NCBI GenBank assembly: GCA_013373425.1
Contig: JABXHW010000004.1
Coordinates: forward strand, 1 to 64,000
DNA: 64,000 bases
Direction of reading: 5' to 3'
From: Flavobacteriia bacterium
GTDB lineage: Bacteria; Bacteroidota; Bacteroidia; Flavobacteriales; Schleiferiaceae
Below, in pieces: positions 50,504 to 62,484 of this stretch. A program made the position numbers and the translations under genes. Under the pieces are notes generated by a model. It did not search any database, had not been told where the DNA came from, and saw only the letters and a program-made list of their open reading frames with translations. The stretch's first letter is position 1, and each line of letters starts with the position of its first letter.

Positions 50504-51199
50504 ATGCAAAACATCCTCTTCCTCGATATTGAAACCGTTTCAGAAAAGCCCGACTTTGGCGAACTCACCGAAGAGTGGCAGAAGCTTTACGACGAGAAAA
50601 CACGATGGCAAAGAGGAGAAACCTCCCCTGATGAGTTCTACAATGAAAGAGCGGGAATTTTAGCCGAATTCGGTAAAGTGGTCTGTGTTAGCTTAGGCTA
50701 TTTCCGAGGCGTTGGCGCAGATCGCGAGTTCCGTGTAAAGAGTCTATTCAACCACGATGAAAAACTGATTCTCGGGGAACTGTCAGAGCTCTTATCACAG
50801 CACTTCAGCAACTACTTTCTCTGTGCTCACAACGGCAAGGAGTTCGACTTTCCTTACCTGGCAAGAAGGATGTTGATTCATGAAGTTACACTTCCAGGTC
50901 ACTTGAATATGGCCGGAAAGAAACCTTGGGAGATTCCACATCTCGACACCATGGAAATGTGGAAATTCGGGGACAGAAAGAATTTTACCTCCCTCAAATT
51001 ACTAGCGGCTCTGTTCGATATTCCAACCCCAAAGGATGATATCGATGGCTCGATGGTGGGCGAGGTCTATTGGAAAGACAATGACTTAGAGCGAATCGCA
51101 CGCTACTGCGAGAAAGATGTCATTACTCTAGCTCGCGTTTGGCAACGGTTTAATGGAGAGAAAGCGCTCACCGACGACGAAGTTGTTTCCGGAACTTAG
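50504..51199 (+). CDS. DnaQ-like 3'-5' exonuclease (PolB-type)
   Basis: 231 aa. ExoI motif FLDIETV (Asp8, Glu10), ExoII AHNGKEFDFPYLARR, and ExoIII region YCEKDVITLARVW. This is the stand-alone predicted PolB-type 3'-5' exonuclease/RNase H-like family common in Bacteroidota. Probably DNA or RNA end trimming; no partner was seen. Its 3' end lies 22 nt before the ABC ATPase gene. Confidence 0.9.
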   Translation: MQNILFLDIETVSEKPDFGELTEEWQKLYDEKTRWQRGETSPDEFYNERAGILAEFGKVVCVSLGYFRGVGADREFRVKSLFNHDEKLILGELSELLSQHFSNYFLCAHNGKEFDFPYLARRMLIHEVTLPGHLNMAGKKPWEIPHLDTMEMWKFGDRKNFTSLKLLAALFDIPTPKDDIDGSMVGEVYWKDNDLERIARYCEKDVITLARVWQRFNGEKALTDDEVVSGT

Positions 51200-51209
51200 T
51201 GCCTTCGCT

Positions 51210-51217
51210 TATCTTGC
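51210..51217 (+). promoter_or_regulatory. -7 box (TATCTTGC) at a possibly leaderless start
   Basis: TATCTTGC ends 4 nt before the ABC ATPase ATG, the same distance as in the bestrophin gene. Confidence 0.4.
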
Positions 51218-51221
51218 AGGC

Positions 51222-52874
51222 ATGTCCGCAATTCTTGACATTCAGAACTTGTCCGTTTCCTTTGGCGACAAAGAGGTGGTTTCTCAGCTCTCGCTTTCAC
51301 TTGAGGCTGGAAAAACGACCGCAATTGTGGGTGAGTCGGGAAGCGGAAAATCGGTTACGAGTCTTGCTATCATGGGATTGTTACGTGCTTCGATAGCAGC
51401 GGATCAACTCTCCTTTCAAGGCATAAATCTGCTTTCGATTTCTGAAGAAGAACACCGCAAATTGCGAGGTTCCGGAATGGCCATGATTTTTCAGGAACCA
51501 ATGACCGCCCTCAATCCGTCTATGCGATGTGGAGATCAGGTGGCTGAAATCATCCTACAACACACCAACCTCAACCGAAAGGAAGCCATGGAAAGGGCTC
51601 TTGAACTCTTCAAAGAGGTTCAAATTCCCAATCCTGCTGAAAAGCTAAAAGCATGGCCCCACGAAATGAGCGGTGGTCAACGTCAAAGAGTGATGATTGC
51701 AATGGCCCTAGCGTGCTCTCCGCAATTGCTCATCGCTGATGAGCCGACAACCGCGTTGGATGTGACGGTTCAAAAGGAGATTTTGAAGCTCATCAATGAC
51801 CTGAAGACCAAGCGCAACATGGCGGTGCTGTTTATCACTCACGATTTGGGCGTGGTTGCAGAAGTTGCCGATGACGTTTTGGTTATGTATCGCGGTCAGA
51901 TGAAGGAATTCGGCACTGTCGATCAAGTTTTATATCACTCAAAAGACGCCTACACCCAAGGCCTTTTAGAATGTCGTCCTCCACTTGAAAATCGCCCAAA
52001 ACGCTTAACCACCGTTGCCGACGTGATGGAGAAGCGCACAGTAAATCGTCAAGAAGTGCACAGCGACTTCCAGCGTATCGAGAAGCAAGATCCACTGTTG
52101 GAGATTGATAACTTGGAAAAGTGGTTTCCAGCGGGTAAAACCTCGTTGTTTGGGACCGCTGAGGTTTATAAGGCGGTGAACCAAGTGAGCGTCAAGCTAT
52201 ACCCAGGTGAAACATTGGGTCTGGTAGGCGAATCTGGATGTGGCAAGAGTACCTTGAGCCGATGTCTAGTTCACTTGCACGAAGCCAACGCAGGTGAAAT
52301 CCGATGGAAAGGGAAAGATATCACCCACGCTAAAGGCAAGGAACTCCGTGCATTGCGCAAGGAGATTCAGATGATATTTCAAGACCCATTCGCTTCGCTT
52401 AATCCGCGCTCAAATGTGAGTCAGATACTCACAGAGCCCATGCTGGTGCACGGACTGTTCAAAGGGCAGAGAAAAGAACGTGCTAAGTACCTGTTAAAGC
52501 GGGTAGGCCTTTCAACGGAAGCTCTTCACAAATACCCACATGAATTCAGCGGTGGTCAACGCCAGCGCATTGGTATCGCACGCGCACTTGCTGTAGAGCC
52601 AGAACTGTTGATTTGTGATGAGTCTGTATCTGCACTTGACGTGAGTGTGCAAGCTCAAGTGTTGAATTTGCTGAACGAACTAAAGGAAGAATTCGGATTC
52701 TCCTACCTCTTCATTTCTCACGATTTATCGGTTGTGAAATACATGTCTGACCACCTGATGGTCATGCGTGCCGGCTTGCTTGAAGAGTACGGGCGTGCCG
52801 AAGAAGTTTACAAAAACCCAACTTCGGCGTACACCGCCAAGCTCATCGAATCCATCCCAAAAATTAACTCATAG
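51222..52874 (+). CDS. Fused peptide ABC transporter ATPase (two nucleotide-binding domains)
   Basis: 550 aa. Two complete ATPases in one chain, like DppD-DppF or GsiA/YejF. Domain 1 ~5-265: GESGSGKS, MSGGQRQRVMIAMAL, LLIADEPTTALDV; domain 2 ~285-550: GESGCGKS, FSGGQRQRIGIARAL, LLICDESVSALDV. Oligopeptide-type C-terminal extensions follow each domain (GLLECRPPLENRPKRL, AKLIESIPKI). No permease or binding-protein gene is near, so the partner genes must lie elsewhere. The ATG at 51222 is preferred over the frame start at 51153, inside the exonuclease gene. Confidence 0.93.
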   Translation: MSAILDIQNLSVSFGDKEVVSQLSLSLEAGKTTAIVGESGSGKSVTSLAIMGLLRASIAADQLSFQGINLLSISEEEHRKLRGSGMAMIFQEPMTALNPSMRCGDQVAEIILQHTNLNRKEAMERALELFKEVQIPNPAEKLKAWPHEMSGGQRQRVMIAMALACSPQLLIADEPTTALDVTVQKEILKLINDLKTKRNMAVLFITHDLGVVAEVADDVLVMYRGQMKEFGTVDQVLYHSKDAYTQGLLECRPPLENRPKRLTTVADVMEKRTVNRQEVHSDFQRIEKQDPLLEIDNLEKWFPAGKTSLFGTAEVYKAVNQVSVKLYPGETLGLVGESGCGKSTLSRCLVHLHEANAGEIRWKGKDITHAKGKELRALRKEIQMIFQDPFASLNPRSNVSQILTEPMLVHGLFKGQRKERAKYLLKRVGLSTEALHKYPHEFSGGQRQRIGIARALAVEPELLICDESVSALDVSVQAQVLNLLNELKEEFGFSYLFISHDLSVVKYMSDHLMVMRAGLLEEYGRAEEVYKNPTSAYTAKLIESIPKINS

Positions 52875-52877
52875 CCC

Positions 52878-54287
52878 GTGGTATTTAGCAGCGCTTGGTT
52901 TCTATTTGGGTTCTTTCCTGTCTTTTTCGGGATATACTTTTTGGTTCCTCACAGATGGAAGAATCTGTGGGCACTCGTTGGCTCCACATTCTTTTATGCT
53001 TGGGGCGGACCTGCCTTTGTGTTTGTCCTTTTCGCCAGTTTAACAGCCGACTATTTTATTTCCCTTCAATTCTCAAAGAGCACCGAAAAGAGGAGAAAAT
53101 CGCTTCTCACCCTCGGGCTAATAATCAACGTCGGACTGCTAGTCTATTTCAAATACGCCAACTTCTTTGTCGATAACTTCAGTCTGTTGCTCGAAGCATT
53201 AGGCATGTCAGGATTGCATTGGACGAAAGTGGCTCTCCCTATCGGGATATCCTTTTTCACTTTCCAGAAGATTAGCTATCTCGTAGATGTATATCGCGGG
53301 GAAAAGGCCCCGTTGAAAAAGTGGACGGACTATGCTCTGTTCGTTGTGCTCTTTCCTCAGCTCATAGCGGGACCGATTGTTCGCTTCAAGGAAATCGCCG
53401 ATCAGATTGTAGATCGAAGAAAGTGGTTAATCCCAGAAGAGAGGTTGCTGGGCTTGTTCCGATTCTCCATCGGTTTGGGCAAAAAAATCTTGATTGCGAA
53501 CCCTATGGGAGCCGTTGCTGATGGAATTCTCAATGGAACAATTGACCCGAATGGCGGTCAAGCTTGGCTTGCCATGATCTGCTATACTTTCCAAATTTAC
53601 TTCGACTTCTCCGGCTATTCCGACATGGCCATTGGGCTGGGTAGAATGATGGGCTTCCACTTTCCTGAGAACTTCAACTTCCCCTATTTGTCCAAAAATA
53701 TCACTGAATTCTGGCGTAGATGGCACATCACGCTGAGCAGTTGGATGAGGGATTATCTGTATATCCCTTTGGGTGGAAACCGCAAAGGCGTTCGGCGAAC
53801 CTACATCAACTTATGGTTGGTGTTCTTGATTTCTGGCTTGTGGCATGGCGACAGTTGGAACTTCGTGATTTGGGGTGCTTATCACGGATTGTGGCTCGTC
53901 TTAGAAAGAGCCTACCTACTCAAAAAATTAAGCAGATTACCGAACCTTGTGCAGATCGTTCTCACCTTCCTTCTGGTTATGGTAGGGTGGCTGATCTTCC
54001 GCATTGAAGACATGTCTCAACTCGGTCACTATCTTGAAGGATTATTGCACTTCACACCAAAAGGGTTTAAACTCGACACATCCGATGTAATCGTGTTGAT
54101 CCTGGCCGTTGCCTTTTCATTTTGGAACTTTTCTCCACGCGCCCAGAAATGGGAGCAAACCGTATACAAAACACTCTCTCCGAAAAAAGCGCTCTACCTC
54201 TCTCTTATTGCATTTAGTTTGATACTAATTTCATCCATTGGGGTAGCTAGTTCGGAATTTAATCCGTTCATCTACTTCAGATTTTGA
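52878..54287 (+). CDS. MBOAT O-acyltransferase (AlgI-like)
   Basis: 469 aa with about twelve membrane helices. GTG start, 3 nt after the ABC stop. The AlgI core is clear: IGLGRMMGFHFPENFNFPYLSKNITEFWRRWHITLSSWMRDYLYIPLGGNRKG, and SGLWHGDSWNFVIWGAYHG with H323 (the position of catalytic His322 in Pseudomonas AlgI) and H336. Moves acyl groups, usually acetyl, across the inner membrane toward a partner. First gene of a tightly overlapping four-gene operon; its TGA overlaps the TTG start of the next. Confidence 0.93.
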   Translation: MVFSSAWFLFGFFPVFFGIYFLVPHRWKNLWALVGSTFFYAWGGPAFVFVLFASLTADYFISLQFSKSTEKRRKSLLTLGLIINVGLLVYFKYANFFVDNFSLLLEALGMSGLHWTKVALPIGISFFTFQKISYLVDVYRGEKAPLKKWTDYALFVVLFPQLIAGPIVRFKEIADQIVDRRKWLIPEERLLGLFRFSIGLGKKILIANPMGAVADGILNGTIDPNGGQAWLAMICYTFQIYFDFSGYSDMAIGLGRMMGFHFPENFNFPYLSKNITEFWRRWHITLSSWMRDYLYIPLGGNRKGVRRTYINLWLVFLISGLWHGDSWNFVIWGAYHGLWLVLERAYLLKKLSRLPNLVQIVLTFLLVMVGWLIFRIEDMSQLGHYLEGLLHFTPKGFKLDTSDVIVLILAVAFSFWNFSPRAQKWEQTVYKTLSPKKALYLSLIAFSLILISSIGVASSEFNPFIYFRF

Positions 54288-55672
54288 AATTTAGAAAAGC
54301 GCACTTTCTCTCCTTCAGCCCTCTCGAAAGAGTCATAGCATTCCTTCTTATTGCTACGATAGGTTTCCGCGTATATTTCGCCTTAGCGTTGCCGATTACG
54401 TTCGATGAAGCATTCATGTATCTCTTCACGGTAAGCAATGGTAGTTGGAGCGCTTGGACCTCCTATTCGGAGCCCAATAATCATTTGATGTACTCTGTAC
54501 TATCTGCATTATGGACGCCCATAGATGGACAAACCACTATCGTATTCCGAATGCTCTCCATCATTTTCTCGGCAGCAACTACCCTACTTCTATACAAAAC
54601 CCTGCAGTTGTATTTCAGTAGAAGAGTAAGTCTACTGACCACCCTATTTACCTTTTGTCTTCCTGCCGTCATCTACTACGGGTTCGTCGCAAGAGGGTAC
54701 AGTTTGATACTATTCTTTTCCATTTGGGCGATTTGGTCGGCTGCACACTTCTTAAAATCCAGCAAATGGCATTATGGATTTCAAATGACTCTTGCTCTTG
54801 CGTTTGGGGCTTGGTCCGTTCCTTCTCAGCTGTATTTCTGTATTATTTATACGCTCGTATGCCTTTTTCTGGCGTGGAGATATTTCTCCAAATCCACAGC
54901 CATTAAAGTTGGACTATGGACGGGTCTGGGTGTGATACTCGCTGCGGTTCTCTACCTTCCTCCGGTCTTATATTCTGGTCTTGACTCCATCATTGCCAAT
55001 AGATTTGTAACCCAACCAGACGGTGGAGTCTCTGTATTGGACTGGGCTGAACATTGGTACCTCTCGAGTCTGTTTTACTTCTGTATTCCAGCGATTGCGC
55101 TACTCCCCATTCTTTCGATGATCTTGCTTTGGAGAAAGGGGAAATGGACCACCAAGCATAGCGTCATCTCGTTGGCTCTTCTTATGGTTGTTCTTATACC
55201 ATTGATTCACCAACGTCTCGCTTTCCCAAGAACCTGGATCTTCATCGTTCCGTTGTGGGGCGCTTTAGTGATTGATGGATTGTTGTCGCTACGGACGAGG
55301 GTGATAGGGTATATTCTCACCCTCGGGTGTTGCTTATTCCTCATCTGGACACCTACCTATATTGGTCGATGGGAGGTTGGGGCGAAAGAGGTGGAGCAGC
55401 TGTATCAGAGATTGATAGTAGATGATGTGCACGCCATTCATGTCAACCATCCCTACATTCCTGTTTTGCTCAAGTACCACCAAAAGGTCCACTCAAGTGA
55501 AGATGATTTTGCTATTGATGCTGCACAAAACTTGAATGTAACACCAGAAGAACTCGACGGTATCCAGGATTCATCTGATCTCATTATCCTCAATCAAGAT
55601 GAATACCCCAACATTCCATTAAATTACTGCTTAGATTCGTGTCGGAGTTACCGAATCTACATCGGCCCTTAA
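54284..55672 (+). CDS. GT-C-type membrane glycosyltransferase-like protein
   Basis: 462 aa with about eleven membrane helices. TTG start overlapping the MBOAT stop (TTGA). After the first helix comes PITFDEAFMYLF, an acidic D-E motif like that of GT39/ArnT-type enzymes, which take sugars from polyprenyl-phosphate carriers. A soluble C-terminal region of ~90 residues follows the last helix. Likely transfers a sugar at the periplasmic face. Coupled to the AlgJ-like gene (TAATG). Confidence 0.8.
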   Translation: MKFRKAHFLSFSPLERVIAFLLIATIGFRVYFALALPITFDEAFMYLFTVSNGSWSAWTSYSEPNNHLMYSVLSALWTPIDGQTTIVFRMLSIIFSAATTLLLYKTLQLYFSRRVSLLTTLFTFCLPAVIYYGFVARGYSLILFFSIWAIWSAAHFLKSSKWHYGFQMTLALAFGAWSVPSQLYFCIIYTLVCLFLAWRYFSKSTAIKVGLWTGLGVILAAVLYLPPVLYSGLDSIIANRFVTQPDGGVSVLDWAEHWYLSSLFYFCIPAIALLPILSMILLWRKGKWTTKHSVISLALLMVVLIPLIHQRLAFPRTWIFIVPLWGALVIDGLLSLRTRVIGYILTLGCCLFLIWTPTYIGRWEVGAKEVEQLYQRLIVDDVHAIHVNHPYIPVLLKYHQKVHSSEDDFAIDAAQNLNVTPEELDGIQDSSDLIILNQDEYPNIPLNYCLDSCRSYRIYIGP

Positions 55673-56793
55673 TGAGCAGAGTCAAGAACATATCATCCAT
55701 TTCCTTTGCGATTCTATTCGCAATGCTTCTGATTCCGGCCCTTCTCACATTGTTTGATTGGCCTAAGACAGAGTCATTATCGGGTTCATTTGAGCCTGTG
55801 GATAGAATCCCACTTACGACGGAATCTTGGTTTTCAGGTGACTTTCAATCGAATTGGGAAAGTTGGTATAACGACACACTCCAAACGCATGCTCCCATGG
55901 TGCGCGTGAAGAACCAATTCTTGTATTCGGTTTTTGAGGAAACGACCACGTATGTTCTCATTGGGAAGAACAATCAACTCTTCGCCTATAATTACTTCCC
56001 TGCTTTCCGAGGTTTCAACAGAAAGAGCAACGCGCATTGGCGTCAGGTTGGAAAAGACTTGGCTTGGTTGAAGGACACCTTGGCGGCTCACGACATTCCT
56101 TTGCTCTTTGTCATCGCTCCAAATAAGGTCCGATACATGCCTGAGAATCTACCTGATCAATTCGTGAAAACACCTGGAGACAGTAGCGACCAATACAATG
56201 CTGTCGCCATGCTAGACGCGAATGATATTCCCTATCTCGACCTCAACTCATACTTCTTGTCGCTGAAGGAAACGACTAAATACCCTCTTTTTCCTAACAC
56301 AGGCACCCACTGGTCTGAATACGGCGCTCTAATTGCCGGCGATACCTTGATTGGAAGCTTGGGTAGGCTGCTCGACACTTCATTGACCCAATTAGAGTTT
56401 AGCTCGGATGAAGTCACTGACTACTCCATGAATGGCGACGACGAACTCGCTCAGCACCTGAACCTATGGGAAGCTCCTAAAACGGAACCACTTCCTTTCC
56501 CCAAAGTGATCTTTCACAACGAGTCTGTGTGGAAGCCCAATGTGGTTCTAGTAAGCGACAGTTATTATTGGGGGTTGAATAACTCTGGTGTTCTCCCGAA
56601 CTCTGTTTCCGAAAACCACACGCTCTGGTATTATAACAACACCAATTTCGATGATGAATATGGTGAGAAGAACTTGGATGAAATCAATCGTTGGGAGGAG
56701 TTACTCGAACGAGACGCTGTCATAATTTTAGGCACGGAAAGCAATCTATTCCTTATGCCTTACGGATTGATCGAAGATTTGAAAGCACAATGA
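55672..56793 (+). CDS. AlgJ/AlgX-like SGNH O-acetyltransferase
   Basis: 373 aa. An N-terminal membrane anchor (~7-27) precedes an SGNH-hydrolase-like domain with DIPLLFVIAPNKVRYMPENLP, GTHW (211-214) and VLVSDSYYWG with the candidate nucleophile S295 or S297. In AlgJ/AlgX the motif is D-x-H-W; here the Asp position is Gly, as can be seen in other Bacteroidota members. It pairs with the MBOAT protein to acetylate a glycan in the periplasm. Translationally coupled on both sides (TAATG, ATGA). Confidence 0.85.
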   Translation: MSRVKNISSISFAILFAMLLIPALLTLFDWPKTESLSGSFEPVDRIPLTTESWFSGDFQSNWESWYNDTLQTHAPMVRVKNQFLYSVFEETTTYVLIGKNNQLFAYNYFPAFRGFNRKSNAHWRQVGKDLAWLKDTLAAHDIPLLFVIAPNKVRYMPENLPDQFVKTPGDSSDQYNAVAMLDANDIPYLDLNSYFLSLKETTKYPLFPNTGTHWSEYGALIAGDTLIGSLGRLLDTSLTQLEFSSDEVTDYSMNGDDELAQHLNLWEAPKTEPLPFPKVIFHNESVWKPNVVLVSDSYYWGLNNSGVLPNSVSENHTLWYYNNTNFDDEYGEKNLDEINRWEELLERDAVIILGTESNLFLMPYGLIEDLKAQ

Positions 56794-58154
56794 CGAAGCT
56801 GCCTTCTGTTAAACCACTAGAAAATGAGCGGTTAGTACTGGCGCTTGTCGCTTTGTTCTACACTCTTTTCCTGCTCATTCAGGACGGAATTGTGGATACC
56901 GCTGATGGCATTTTACATTATCAATATGCGCGATTCGCCGCAGATCATCCTGAGAATTTCTTCAATCATTGGGCAAAACCCGTCTTTACTTTACTCGCCT
57001 TCTTACCCGCACAAGTAGGATTGATTGGAGTAAAAATTCTGAACATTCTTTTGGTCACTGCCACCGCCGGATTGGTCATGAAAACCGCAAAGGTTCTCAA
57101 GCTTCGAGAATGGGCACTTGCAGGCCTCTTGTCGGTCTTGGGCAACTCTGTTACATATGTTGTGCTTGGTGGACTAACGGAGCCATCCATGATGCTCGTC
57201 TTGAGCGCTGTGATGTACACAGCTGTATCAAGACAATTTAAATGGATGTACTTCTTGTTGGGGTTGAGCTTGATGGTGAGACCAGAAGCGATTGTGATGA
57301 TTGCGGTATTCGGCATCTACGGACTTACTTACGGCAAATGGAAAGAGACCATATGGGGACTGGTCTTTCCTCTACTTATAACGGTGTCGGGAATGCTCAT
57401 TGCCGGGTATGAATGGAGCTGGATTGTAACTCAACAACCGTATAATCCGGGTGGATCGGTGTATGGCCACGGCGAGTGGACGCATTATTACGACAGATGG
57501 AGCAAAGTAACCCCGTACATCACGCTTTATCTCGCTTTGGGGTCTATCGTTATTCTGGGACTTAAAAGAAAAGCGGATCGATTAATTCCGGTCGTCCTTA
57601 CAGGCTTCGGGATAATCGCCCTACATGTTTTCTTATGGCGGTTTGGTAAGATGGGATCGGCCGGCTTGGTTAGAACGCTGACAACGGCTTTACCAGCATT
57701 GGGCTTGCTATCGGCATATACTCTTTCGCACTTCCGCTATAGAGCTTTGGTGCTGCTACCTCTCCTATTCTTCGCCATTGAGTTTAAGAACAAAAACGAC
57801 TTCCCCGCTGAGGCTCGTGACAGCGAGTTAGCCGCACAGTCTATGGCTCAAAAGATTGAAGATCGAGGGCTGATTACTTCTGAAACTCGAATAGCGTATC
57901 AGTTTGCCACCACGGCCTATTATCTCGACATAAATCCTTTTAACAGGGAGAAGGTCACACGCCTATGGTCGTTGGATAGAGAAACGGCCAGTTCTTCGCT
58001 CAAGAACGGAGATATTCTGATTTGGGATAACATGACGGGTCACCGAGAAGGCGGGCTCACATGGGAGCGCATATCCAATGACCCACACGTAGAACAACTT
58101 GATTCGGTCAGTGTAAATGACGCTAAACTTGTAAGCTTTAGGATTGTGAAATAA
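56790..58154 (+). CDS. GT-C-type membrane glycosyltransferase-like protein
   Basis: 454 aa with about ten membrane helices. The ATG at 56790 overlaps the stop of the AlgJ-like gene (ATGA); an earlier in-frame start (56691) lies within that gene. First outer loop VDTADGILHYQYARFAADHPENFFNHWAKPVF carries an Asp and His-rich pattern seen in mannosyltransferase-like GT-C proteins. A soluble C-terminal segment (~370-454) follows. Last gene of the operon; scoB converges with it, with only 6 nt between. Confidence 0.8.
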   Translation: MTKLPSVKPLENERLVLALVALFYTLFLLIQDGIVDTADGILHYQYARFAADHPENFFNHWAKPVFTLLAFLPAQVGLIGVKILNILLVTATAGLVMKTAKVLKLREWALAGLLSVLGNSVTYVVLGGLTEPSMMLVLSAVMYTAVSRQFKWMYFLLGLSLMVRPEAIVMIAVFGIYGLTYGKWKETIWGLVFPLLITVSGMLIAGYEWSWIVTQQPYNPGGSVYGHGEWTHYYDRWSKVTPYITLYLALGSIVILGLKRKADRLIPVVLTGFGIIALHVFLWRFGKMGSAGLVRTLTTALPALGLLSAYTLSHFRYRALVLLPLLFFAIEFKNKNDFPAEARDSELAAQSMAQKIEDRGLITSETRIAYQFATTAYYLDINPFNREKVTRLWSLDRETASSSLKNGDILIWDNMTGHREGGLTWERISNDPHVEQLDSVSVNDAKLVSFRIVK

Positions 58155-58940: not shown

Positions 58941-58982
58941 CTCACGGACCCACGTCCGCACGCCCTTACGAACCCACGTACC
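58941..58982. repeat. 8-mer tandem array
   Basis: Five phased units CTCACGGA CCCACGTC CGCACGCC CTTACGAA CCCACGTA. Same word type as the array at 46421-46500, at the far side of scoB. The surrounding 58852-59065 holds no gene; a poly-A run (58982-58990) follows. Confidence 0.65.
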
Positions 58983-59065
58983 AAAAAAAAAGGGGGAAGA
59001 ACCGAGACCTGGAGGTTCTGCCACCCTTTATCACATCCCTGAGCGGGTGTGTAGGAATATTGTAC

Positions 59066-59239
59066 TTAAGAATTCTTGCGAGCGTCGTGCACCTTTTTTG
59101 CACCAAGGCCAACGCCGGCTGCTATGAGCAAGCTCAACCCACCATCGATAGGAGCTGGAGTTGAAGGGTTGCCTGGCTGAGCCAAAGCTACCATCCCAAC
59201 GAGCATAAATGCTACTAAAAAGATATTCTTGATTTTCAT
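59066..59239 (-). CDS. Tiny secreted protein with PID motif and C-terminal membrane helix (57 aa)
   Basis: 57 aa. Signal peptide (1-20, ending ALA), then QPGNPSTPAPIDG, a hydrophobic segment (LSLLIAAGVGLG) and a basic tail (KKVHDARKNS). This three-part end (PID motif, helix, basic cluster) resembles small Bacteroidota proteins described as PID-CTERM sorting proteins, analogous to PEP-CTERM signals read by exosortases; that assignment is from memory. If both ends were cut, only a ~10-residue Pro-rich peptide would remain. A paralogue lies at 59646-59822. It has its own promoter with paired direct repeats. Confidence 0.85.
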   Translation of the reverse strand: MKIKNIFLVAFMLVGMVALAQPGNPSTPAPIDGGLSLLIAAGVGLGAKKVHDARKNS

Positions 59240-59285
59240 TTCGAATTAGGTCTCTAAGCGTTCTAGTCTCTCTCTTTGAACAGTC

Positions 59286-59293
59286 CAAATATA
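59286..59293 (-). promoter_or_regulatory. -7 box (TATATTTG) of the 57-aa gene
   Basis: On the minus strand, a perfect TAnnTTTG match about 47 nt before the ATG at 59239. The paired repeats begin 29 bp upstream of it. Confidence 0.65.
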
Positions 59294-59322
59294 TGCTGCC
59301 TGCACAAGGTCCGAGGAAATCT

Positions 59323-59355
59323 TTCGACGAATGGTAAGCAGGCTTCGATGAATGG
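59323..59355 (-). promoter_or_regulatory. Paired 12-bp direct repeats, 21-bp period (regulator site)
   Basis: Plus-strand TTCGACGAATGG (59323-59334) and TTCGATGAATGG (59344-59355), 21 bp apart. The same pair lies upstream of the large T9SS cargo gene at 62522-62554, at the same 29-bp distance from its -7 box. A two-turn period fits LytTR-type regulators, which bind paired direct repeats; the regulator is not in the window. Confidence 0.65.
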
Positions 59356-59368
59356 TTTAATAGACGTT

Positions 59369-59645
59369 GTTTCGTAGGAATTCAGCCACAAAATGGCACG
59401 CTCAAGTAGTGCTAGAACTCAATCCAGCTGCACGATAGAAGAATAATGTGGCGGAAAGTTTCTCAGGCGCTTAAGATCACGCACAAAATGAAAAACAATG
59501 CAATCCAATACGTCTTTCTAGTCATCTTCAGGGGGCTAAATAGAACGCGATTTCCTTGAGTATCACATTCAATTTAAAAATAACGATTCCGTCTAAGGAA
59601 TTGTTCTAACTCCCTGAAAATTACTCCCTAAAAAGTGTTCAGATT
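59369..59645. other. Gap between the two tiny-protein genes
   Basis: About 280 bp without a gene. It starts with GTTTCGTAGGAAT (59369-59381), nearly identical to GTTTTGTAGGAAT at 62602-62614. The rest is A/T-rich with no clear structure. Confidence 0.5.
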
Positions 59646-59822
59646 TTAATTTCTCGCCAATCTGCGAGAACGAATCACGGCATACATTCCGAGCAGGCCT
59701 CCTGCAACGATCAGAATAACTGTTGAGCCATCGATAGGTGCCGGAGTGGATGGATTTCCAGGCTGAGCACTGGCAACAATGCTCAATAGAAATATGGCTC
59801 CGAGGATCAGTGTACGTTTCAT
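59646..59822 (-). CDS. Tiny secreted protein with PID motif and C-terminal membrane helix (58 aa)
   Basis: 58 aa. Signal peptide (1-19, ending ASA), then QPGNPSTPAPIDG (20-32), a hydrophobic helix (VILIVAGGLLGMYAVI) and a basic tail (RSRRLARN). The core is identical to that of the 57-aa paralogue, while signal peptide, helix and tail differ. Starts 29 bp after the large T9SS cargo gene, so it is probably cotranscribed with it from the promoter at 62485. As in the paralogue, a PID-CTERM-type sorting signal is suspected. Confidence 0.85.
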   Translation of the reverse strand: MKRTLILGAIFLLSIVASAQPGNPSTPAPIDGSTVILIVAGGLLGMYAVIRSRRLARN

Positions 59823-59851: not shown

Positions 59852-62437
59852 TTAGAACAATTTGATGGATTGTGCCTCTTCACCGTTCCAAACACGTACC
59901 ACTAGTGGTCCAAGTCCGCTGAAGGTAAATTCACCTGCTCCCATGTTGAAGTCAACATCGCCAGACCAAACCACGCGACCAGTCATGTCGAACACTTCTG
60001 TAGAGTGGCTACCGTTGAGTTCTTCAAAATCGATATGCACTTGGTCGCCGTTTCTGTAAGCCGACATTACTTCATCTTGACGAGTGAGCTCAGTCAATGA
60101 AACCGCCGTATTGTTCACCTTGAGGATGAAACGCTGGCGAGGAGCACTAGCATCATGCGTGAAGATGTAATCTCCAGCCTGAAGATCAGCCACCATTCCA
60201 GTGTGAATGTCTTCTAAGTATACATAGATACCGCGTGGCAAGAAGCTGTTGTCGATAGAAATACGACCAGTAGCTCCGTCAGTCATATAGTCGTAAGACA
60301 GGTAGATGTCTTCCATTCCTCGTGGGAAAGGACGTTGGTCGATTTGCAGTCCAGCGCTATCCGCGGAAACAATGTTAAAAGTAACTTGATCTGGATTCAC
60401 ACCTCTGTAAAGTGCGTCCCAACGGAACTCATAGTTCGCAGACTTCAAATCGTCGAACATCAAGTAACCTGAAGTAGTGTGTCCTTCGCTGCTCGCGTTG
60501 ATGATCAACTGTGGTTTGGCATTCGTCACCTTACCGAAGTAGTTCTGATCACCGTCGAATACGTGAGGCTGACCTCTTCTGATATTCTGACCAGATGCTC
60601 CTGGCTCTGCTTTAGCGAAGTAAGCAAGTAGTGGAACGATGTCGAACTTGCTCGTTCCCAAACCATCAACCCAAGTGTCATAAGCTCCAGTACCTGGGTT
60701 CCAGAAGTAAACCGCAGTTCCTACGTCAGCTGGCAAGTCGTTATCAACTTTCTCCCAAGAAATATGTCCCCAGTATGGATTCTTCATCAAGTTCCAACCT
60801 CCGTTGTTTGAAGGGTTGCTATCTGCGCTCAACCAACCGTCGGTCGAGTTTACTGGGTTACCTGTAGGTACTTTGTATTTAGCAACGTGCTCGTGCTCAC
60901 CTGTTGATAGGTTAACGTCTGCGTCCATACTGTCCGCTACATAAGCCAGGTTGATGGTAGTAGGAACGTGAGCTGGAAAGAAGTAAACCGCATAAGCGCT
61001 GTCTCCAAAGTCACTTGTAGAAGTAGTAGTATACCAACCCGGATCAGTTCCTGTCGGCGCTGGGTCCCAACGATACACGTTAGTCTGTGCTCCAGTGAAG
61101 TAAAGGTCCATACCGTTGTCGAAGCTCACGTCTGCAAAAGACAAGTAGCCCGGTGCAGAAAGATGATGCCATCCAGAGTTAGCGAAGTACAACTCCGCGT
61201 TGATGGTTCCTGAGCCTGTAATAGACTGAACACCGGTACCATGAAGTCCCAATGAAGAGAATCCAGTGGCATCCGCATTCAAAGTCATGGTTCCATTCAC
61301 AATGAGGTCGCCCTTATAGTCGAGGTGCGCCCCTGGCTCTAGCGTTGCAACTCCACCAGAGTTTACATCTACGTCTGTTCCAATCTCAGTAACTGCATTG
61401 TTCTCGAGAACGAATGTACCGTTGTTCAAAACAGTCACGCCGTAAACAGTTTGGATATAAGAACCTGACTCACCAGTTACCGTAGTTAAACTGTCTCCAT
61501 TGCCGACTACAATACCCGCAACGTCAAGTGTATCATTCAAAACGATGTTGTACGTTCCAGATAGCACAACCACATTGTGTGTTCTGTTGGGATCGATTGC
61601 AAGAGTGGTAAACCCAGCATCTTGATACCAAAGACCATCATCTTGGTTGTAGTAACGACCAGATGGCTGGGGAGAAATAGTTCCTAGGCTCAAATCACCT
61701 GAACCAGAAGTAGAGTTCAATGTATACCCAACATCATAAACATAGTTCGCGGCGTCGCCAAGACCTGCTAGGATTGCATCGATATCTCCATTGAAATCAA
61801 TCAAGGCTGGATTAGCACCTAGAAGTTTGAAGTTGGAGTTACCATTGTTAAAGAAGTTTGCAGTAAGACCGGATGTTAGACCCCAATTGGAAATACGTGT
61901 AACGTTTGCTGGAATGCCCGGGTCGAGTTGAGAAGAACCCGAAGGATCCGAACCAATTGCATAGATGAATCGCTTCGCTTCGGTAGAGGATCCTTGATAC
62001 AAGATGATATCATCACCATTGTTACCGAATGAAAGAGTGAATGCACCTCCTGAGGTGATGTTCGTAATTTCAGATGTGGTTACACTGCTTCGCGCTGTGG
62101 TGAGGGATGGAGTTGCAGTGTTGATATCTCCAATGACCCAGGTATCGCCTACATTCAAATCTGCTCCCAGCGTGAAGGATAGCCACGAATCTTTTGTGCT
62201 CCCGCCAACTGTAAACGGTGAAGAGGCAGCGATTGAGTAATCGGTCATATACACTACTTCACCAGAATCGAGTGGAGCGAGTGCAACGAACCAAATCTCC
62301 TGAACCCCTGAACCTCCAGTGGAGGCCTCAAAGCCCAATACGATAATCTCGCCTGGATTGATCTTCGAAAATCCTGAGAAGGAAATCAAAGTCATTAAAA
62401 CTAAAGCAATGTTTGAAAGTCTCTTGCGCGTAAACAT
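59852..62437 (-). CDS. Large secreted T9SS cargo protein
   Basis: 861 aa. The ATG at 62437 is chosen because the -7 box at 62485 would place the transcript start downstream of the longer GTG frame (62482). Signal peptide (~1-25), then GEIIVLGFEASTGGSGVQEIWFVALAPL, a beta domain of the kind in choice-of-anchor secreted proteins, long beta-repeat sequence, and a C-terminal T9SS sorting-like domain (~785-861: EVFDMTGRVVWSGDVDF, LVVRVWNGEEAQSIKLF). No catalytic motif. It shares a transcript with the 58-aa PID protein and a regulator-site pair with the 57-aa gene. Confidence 0.88.
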   Translation of the reverse strand: MFTRKRLSNIALVLMTLISFSGFSKINPGEIIVLGFEASTGGSGVQEIWFVALAPLDSGEVVYMTDYSIAASSPFTVGGSTKDSWLSFTLGADLNVGDTWVIGDINTATPSLTTARSSVTTSEITNITSGGAFTLSFGNNGDDIILYQGSSTEAKRFIYAIGSDPSGSSQLDPGIPANVTRISNWGLTSGLTANFFNNGNSNFKLLGANPALIDFNGDIDAILAGLGDAANYVYDVGYTLNSTSGSGDLSLGTISPQPSGRYYNQDDGLWYQDAGFTTLAIDPNRTHNVVVLSGTYNIVLNDTLDVAGIVVGNGDSLTTVTGESGSYIQTVYGVTVLNNGTFVLENNAVTEIGTDVDVNSGGVATLEPGAHLDYKGDLIVNGTMTLNADATGFSSLGLHGTGVQSITGSGTINAELYFANSGWHHLSAPGYLSFADVSFDNGMDLYFTGAQTNVYRWDPAPTGTDPGWYTTTSTSDFGDSAYAVYFFPAHVPTTINLAYVADSMDADVNLSTGEHEHVAKYKVPTGNPVNSTDGWLSADSNPSNNGGWNLMKNPYWGHISWEKVDNDLPADVGTAVYFWNPGTGAYDTWVDGLGTSKFDIVPLLAYFAKAEPGASGQNIRRGQPHVFDGDQNYFGKVTNAKPQLIINASSEGHTTSGYLMFDDLKSANYEFRWDALYRGVNPDQVTFNIVSADSAGLQIDQRPFPRGMEDIYLSYDYMTDGATGRISIDNSFLPRGIYVYLEDIHTGMVADLQAGDYIFTHDASAPRQRFILKVNNTAVSLTELTRQDEVMSAYRNGDQVHIDFEELNGSHSTEVFDMTGRVVWSGDVDFNMGAGEFTFSGLGPLVVRVWNGEEAQSIKLF

Positions 62438-62484
62438 CTCTTCTCTTCTTATGGTGGTCTGTAAGAATGCTCTTTTGAGCACGG

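Follow-up and report, generated by a model that had tools for sequence, protein, structure and literature searches.

The two small tandem genes close to the end of the window (the whole stretch of DNA analysed here, 64,000 nucleotides of contig JABXHW010000004.1 from a Flavobacteriia bacterium of the Schleiferiaceae) probably encode dedicated mini-substrates of exosortase F (XrtF), exosortase-processed partners of the type IX secretion system (T9SS) cargo encoded upstream, whatever the exact role of the peptide may be. They are real members of a family that is already known and named in NCBIfam (NF046080, "PID-CTERM") but uncharacterised, and they consist almost entirely of a sorting tag without cargo.

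Tandem Mini-Protein Genes With a Conserved Core

Both open reading frames start with ATG and lie on the minus strand, within the range given in the preliminary description. The upstream copy (59646..59822) encodes 58 amino acids, laid out as signal peptide, AQ|, Pro-rich core, PIDG motif, membrane helix and basic tail; the downstream tandem copy (59066..59239) encodes 57 amino acids. The two are paralogues with 52% identity, and their core QPGNPSTPAPIDG (59727..59765 in the 58-aa copy and 59141..59179 in the 57-aa copy, minus strand) is the same. The codon comparison agrees with the pattern first noticed for this pair: 8 of the 13 core codons differ, by 8 nucleotide changes that are all synonymous (pS 0.75, pN 0), whereas outside the core the signal peptide (pN 0.51) and the helix and tail (pN 0.56) have diverged freely. 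Homologs with a conserved core, looked for in related genomes, were found as a syntenic tandem pair in Phaeocystidibacter luteus; both members carry QPGNPSTPAPIDG, and their cores differ from those of the window in 7-10 of 13 codons with 0 amino-acid changes. Since the P. luteus pair differs from the window copies in codons but never in protein, the shared core is not a matter of chance; it is under strong purifying selection.

Just 3' of the 57-aa gene, a hairpin followed by a U run (58980..59030, minus strand; folding energy -27 kcal/mol, z -1.9) is a possible but weak cassette terminator; a scan for consensus promoters and terminators reported nothing, this hairpin included. Beside the cassette, an opposite-strand cluster at 51153-58154 seems to encode membrane O-acetyltransferase (MBOAT)-like and membrane glycosyltransferase-like proteins, judged by eye from the translations, and could represent a surface polysaccharide locus. 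In P. luteus, a short sequence (EIFLGLTW..DVLDVEQNRDF) occurs in repeated copies directly after the cassette (L018:6217-6730).

Membership and Anatomy of the PID-CTERM Family

The 57-aa protein matches the PID-CTERM model with 40.6 bits and passes its cut-off of 26; the 58-aa protein scores 18.7 bits, under the cut-off, and its predicted place in the family follows from paralogy and tandem position only. The genome holds five mini copies, the window pair and three elsewhere, and relatives are present throughout the Bacteroidota, with several near-identical copies per genome. A degenerate-pattern scan of the genome contigs recovered a single close relative, and the comparison was therefore carried by profile searches. 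About 115 family members were read from the fetched loci, and the 112 distinct short ones were used for statistics of length and anatomy. Their median length of 67 amino acids shows that small size is a rule of the family and not peculiar to the window; the original reading of these proteins as a sorting signal that carries hardly any cargo, ending in a membrane helix and basic tail, thus describes the family norm. The suggested short Pro-rich product also finds support, with a median of 12 Pro-rich residues between the predicted mature N-terminus and the motif. For 106 of the 112 members the predicted mature protein begins with glutamine at +1, which is expected to form pyroglutamate (PMC5837995), and cysteine is absent in 104 of 106 members checked. 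A lipoprotein was ruled out by the +1 glutamine and the missing lipobox cysteine, and a PEP-CTERM protein by the motif preceding the helix, which is P-I-D-G and not PEP. The sole long carrier of a PID-type signal that was seen is a 952-aa multi-membrane protein ending in VPIDGEVW (locus L140), which we take to resemble the MSEP-CTERM proteins. A search of the literature available to us found no mention of PID-CTERM, and a search for exosortase X as XrtX gave unrelated matches only.

Co-occurrence With Exosortases

A single draw of 345 Bacteroidota genomes included 64 with PID-CTERM matches (E <=0.01) and 103 with exosortase matches. An exosortase was present in 62 of the 64 PID-CTERM genomes but in only 41 of the 281 others (Fisher 7e-38, ignoring shared ancestry); the two PID-CTERM genomes lacking one have weak PID matches. 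Within the window's own family the association recurs, with 40 of 80 genomes having both, 3 PID-CTERM only, 8 exosortase only and 29 neither (2e-11, again ignoring ancestry). A co-occurring exosortase-like protease, proposed as a check at the outset, is therefore found; in the window genome it is XrtF (133 bits, cut-off 90), adjoined by its TIGR04127 companion, and not XrtX, the model of which (NF046081) it fails with 108 bits against a cut-off of 170. The catalytic Cys, Arg and His residues, invariant in 31 of 31 aligned exosortases, are present in this XrtF. Mini genes and exosortase genes are direct neighbors in many genomes; the adjoining exosortases in four of these (G072, G273, G045 and G317) score above the threshold for XrtX. 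This adjacency in several genomes leaves the idea of a decoy for a sorting enzyme unsupported.

An additional profile, built from Flavobacteriaceae members to find further mini-proteins, recovered forms whose motifs include PIDEN and PINEN. PID-type mini-proteins occurred in 26 of 35 XrtF-positive genomes versus 0 of 10 exosortase-negative genomes, a comparison that spans two families of the same order; by such profile searches, XrtF-positive Flavobacterium relatives carry these mini-proteins as well. Flavobacterium johnsoniae depends on XrtF to form biofilms and to colonise surfaces, and the substrates of the enzyme were left to future research (PMC10936215); judged from the profile matches, such mini-proteins are candidates for these substrates. 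That the mini-proteins are exosortase substrates is, overall, very likely.

In the window genome, xrtF follows a PorP/SprF gene and a gene for a 1566-aa PKD-type protein (L152:6082-12933, contig C48); the C-terminus of this protein resembles a T9SS type B signal. Two genomes of the genus (L189, L200) show the order PorP/SprF gene, PKD-type protein and xrtF as well.

T9SS-Type Partner Proteins and Their Shared Module

Immediately 5' of a mini gene, at a distance of about 10-110 bp, there is usually a long gene of the same orientation. Among 92 same-strand 5' neighbors of at least 300 amino acids, 80 carry a T9SS type A domain within their last 300 residues, against a background of just 63-102 such domains per genome. 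When aligned together, these partners share a module of ~360 residues preceding the T9SS C-terminal domain (CTD); it belongs to no Pfam family in a Pfam scan of 50 partners, and a module HMM detected it in all upstream partners in which the CTD profile found a T9SS domain. As this profile was derived from the paired proteins, ranking by its score is partly circular. The N-terminal parts of the partners vary, and include lamin-tail, ice-binding, Calx-beta, FG-GAP and fibronectin domains.

The genes for the module protein, the mini-protein and the exosortase are contiguous on the same strand in seven genomes (loci L092, L128, L321, L322, L323, L324 and L325), and in several of these cassettes the genes overlap by a few bases. 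The loci L321 to L325 come from the window's own family; the cargo gene of L324 ends at a contig edge, and the CTD profile gave no score for the cargo C-terminus in these five.

The large gene of the window conforms to this arrangement. Its open reading frame was called as 59852-62482 (876 aa, minus strand), with 29 bp between its end and the 58-aa gene; the start at 62482 is probably overcalled, and homology to P. luteus suggests a start at 62437 and a secreted protein of ~861 amino acids (59852..62437). In P. luteus, an 855-aa homolog is followed by two mini genes, and homologous large genes likewise precede the mini copies on contigs C38 and C43 of the window genome. The conserved module occupies 60107..61180 on the minus strand, as delimited by the partner alignment (A7), the module HMM, the Pfam scan and a whole-genome search. 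The terminal segment at 59852..60100 is a divergent T9SS type A-like domain: the window partner yielded no NCBIfam match to TIGR04183, and its paralogues scored 18.8 and 13.8 bits, under the cut-off of 23. An hhalign comparison with the CTDs of other partners gave a probability of 81 (E 1.2e-5), and in a predicted model of module and CTD (pLDDT 83) the CTD matched that of a T9SS substrate, 8glk_D, in Foldseek with a probability of 1.00 and a TMt of 0.67. The same Foldseek search found confident solved relatives for the CTD only, and none for the module. With moderate confidence, profile comparison and structure model point to a predicted T9SS-type cargo.

The module was rejected as a strict marker of mini genes, since only 3 of the 8 module proteins in the window genome, which has 96 T9SS domain matches in total, are followed by one. 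In G088, a genome with no exosortase match, seven module-bearing T9SS-type proteins (L283-L289) occur and mini genes do not; together with the five unaccompanied module proteins of the window genome, this shows that the module can be present where the peptide is not. Conversely, some mini-proteins are unaccompanied, among them those in most Flavobacterium genomes and the one on contig C26 of the window genome. The latter (L010:8760-8948) is the fifth, diverged mini copy (QPDFPADPAPLDE), and lies near a LuxR-type regulator gene with no T9SS partner. Given the recurrent pairing, there is little doubt that mini-protein and module protein are functionally coupled.

Proposed Mechanism and Alternative Explanations

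After Sec export, signal peptidase I would expose an N-terminal glutamine, which by the Bacteroidetes Q-rule is expected to cyclise to pyroglutamate; the C-terminal P-I-D-G motif, helix and basic tail would keep the mini-protein in the inner membrane. XrtF, linked to the mini-proteins by co-occurrence and operons, would then, by analogy, cut near the motif and release a Pro-rich peptide of ~12 residues; the new C-terminus of this peptide would probably be attached to a further molecule, likewise by analogy. The freed peptide would serve the neighboring T9SS cargo, probably through the module beside the secretion domain. A role as ligand or anchor for this module is favored, since several different cargos, alike in nothing but module and secretion domain, each have the near-invariant peptide encoded next to them; we nevertheless propose this role tentatively. 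Taken as a whole, such a split sorting system, in which the tag has been moved off the cargo to become its own mini-protein, the exosortase makes a capped and probably conjugated peptide, and the module uses the peptide as a surface anchor, is an equally tentative model; if it is true, XrtF and XrtX are accessory enzymes of T9SS surface display.

A released signalling peptide had been suggested initially, and could be envisioned as a pyroglutamate-capped pheromone of ~12 residues, with the adjacent surface protein as regulated output or receptor. The short product, the conserved core beside a signal peptide that is free to vary, the blocked N-terminus to be expected, the several near-identical copies per genome and the LuxR-type regulator gene adjoining one mini copy are all compatible with a pheromone; yet no regulator or sensor is prominent beside the mini genes, the recurrent neighbor is T9SS cargo, and near-identical copies, one for every cargo gene, would fit supply better than signalling. 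The short peptide of that suggestion is supported, but because the mini-protein is tightly paired with a large T9SS-type surface protein, a lone pheromone is unlikely, and less likely than a partner role. Another explanation casts the mini-protein as an uncleaved inner-membrane adaptor that holds the cargo or delivers it to the T9SS, with the exosortase merely recycling or removing it; signal peptide, helix, basic tail and an operon shared with the cargo would suit such an adaptor, but it is rendered improbable by a Pro-rich segment that stays near-identical despite unrelated N-terminal domains in the cargos, and by the proximity of exosortases, which suggests that processing is central. Chance reading frames, small hydrophobic toxins or other non-sorting membrane peptides would also be small, hydrophobic and arranged in tandem, but are rejected as very improbable on the synonymous-only divergence of the core, the curated family match, the exosortase co-occurrence and the conserved operon.

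Comparison With Known Systems

The preferred interpretation, mini-proteins as XrtF substrates and partners of T9SS cargo, has its nearest counterpart in PID-CTERM (NF046080) and exosortase X (NF046081), which share motif, helix and tail with the window mini-proteins; the near-consecutive accessions NF046080, NF046081 and NF046083 suggest a link between PID-CTERM and XrtX that NCBI curators have already made. In contrast to that system, the window genome has XrtF instead, neither the 58-aa copy nor the Flavobacterium forms reach the cut-off of the PID-CTERM model, and the T9SS partner with its module lies outside any named family found. The exosortase F of Flavobacterium johnsoniae (TIGR04128/TIGR04127; PMC10936215) agrees with the window genome in enzyme and companion gene, to which the present comparison adds the mini-proteins, known from other genomes, as candidate substrates. 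These candidates are tiny, and many stand beside a nameable surface protein; the substrate question of XrtF thereby becomes directly testable, and the genome comparisons suggest how a biofilm-related, unexplained protease of the Bacteroidota may act.

In T9SS type A cargo, which the PorU sortase attaches to A-LPS (PMC7468200), the secretion domain is of the type that the partner proteins carry here, to which the latter add the module and the mini-protein; the portions of this literature available to us yielded no mini-protein partner of type A cargo. No paper was found that links exosortases to the T9SS through a split mini-protein; if the link is true, exosortases are connected with type IX secretion, unlike in any paper found, and a sorting signal has become a gene of its own.

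The tripartite tail of motif, helix and basic end (PMC11980579) is common to the mini-proteins and to the PEP-CTERM/exosortase, PGF-CTERM/archaeosortase, GlyGly-CTERM/rhombosortase and MYXO-CTERM/myxosortase systems. MYXO-CTERM and GlyGly-CTERM are linked to type II secretion, whereas the mini-proteins accompany T9SS cargo; and in all four systems the tag is part of the cargo protein, whereas here it is encoded by a separate gene beside the T9SS cargo.
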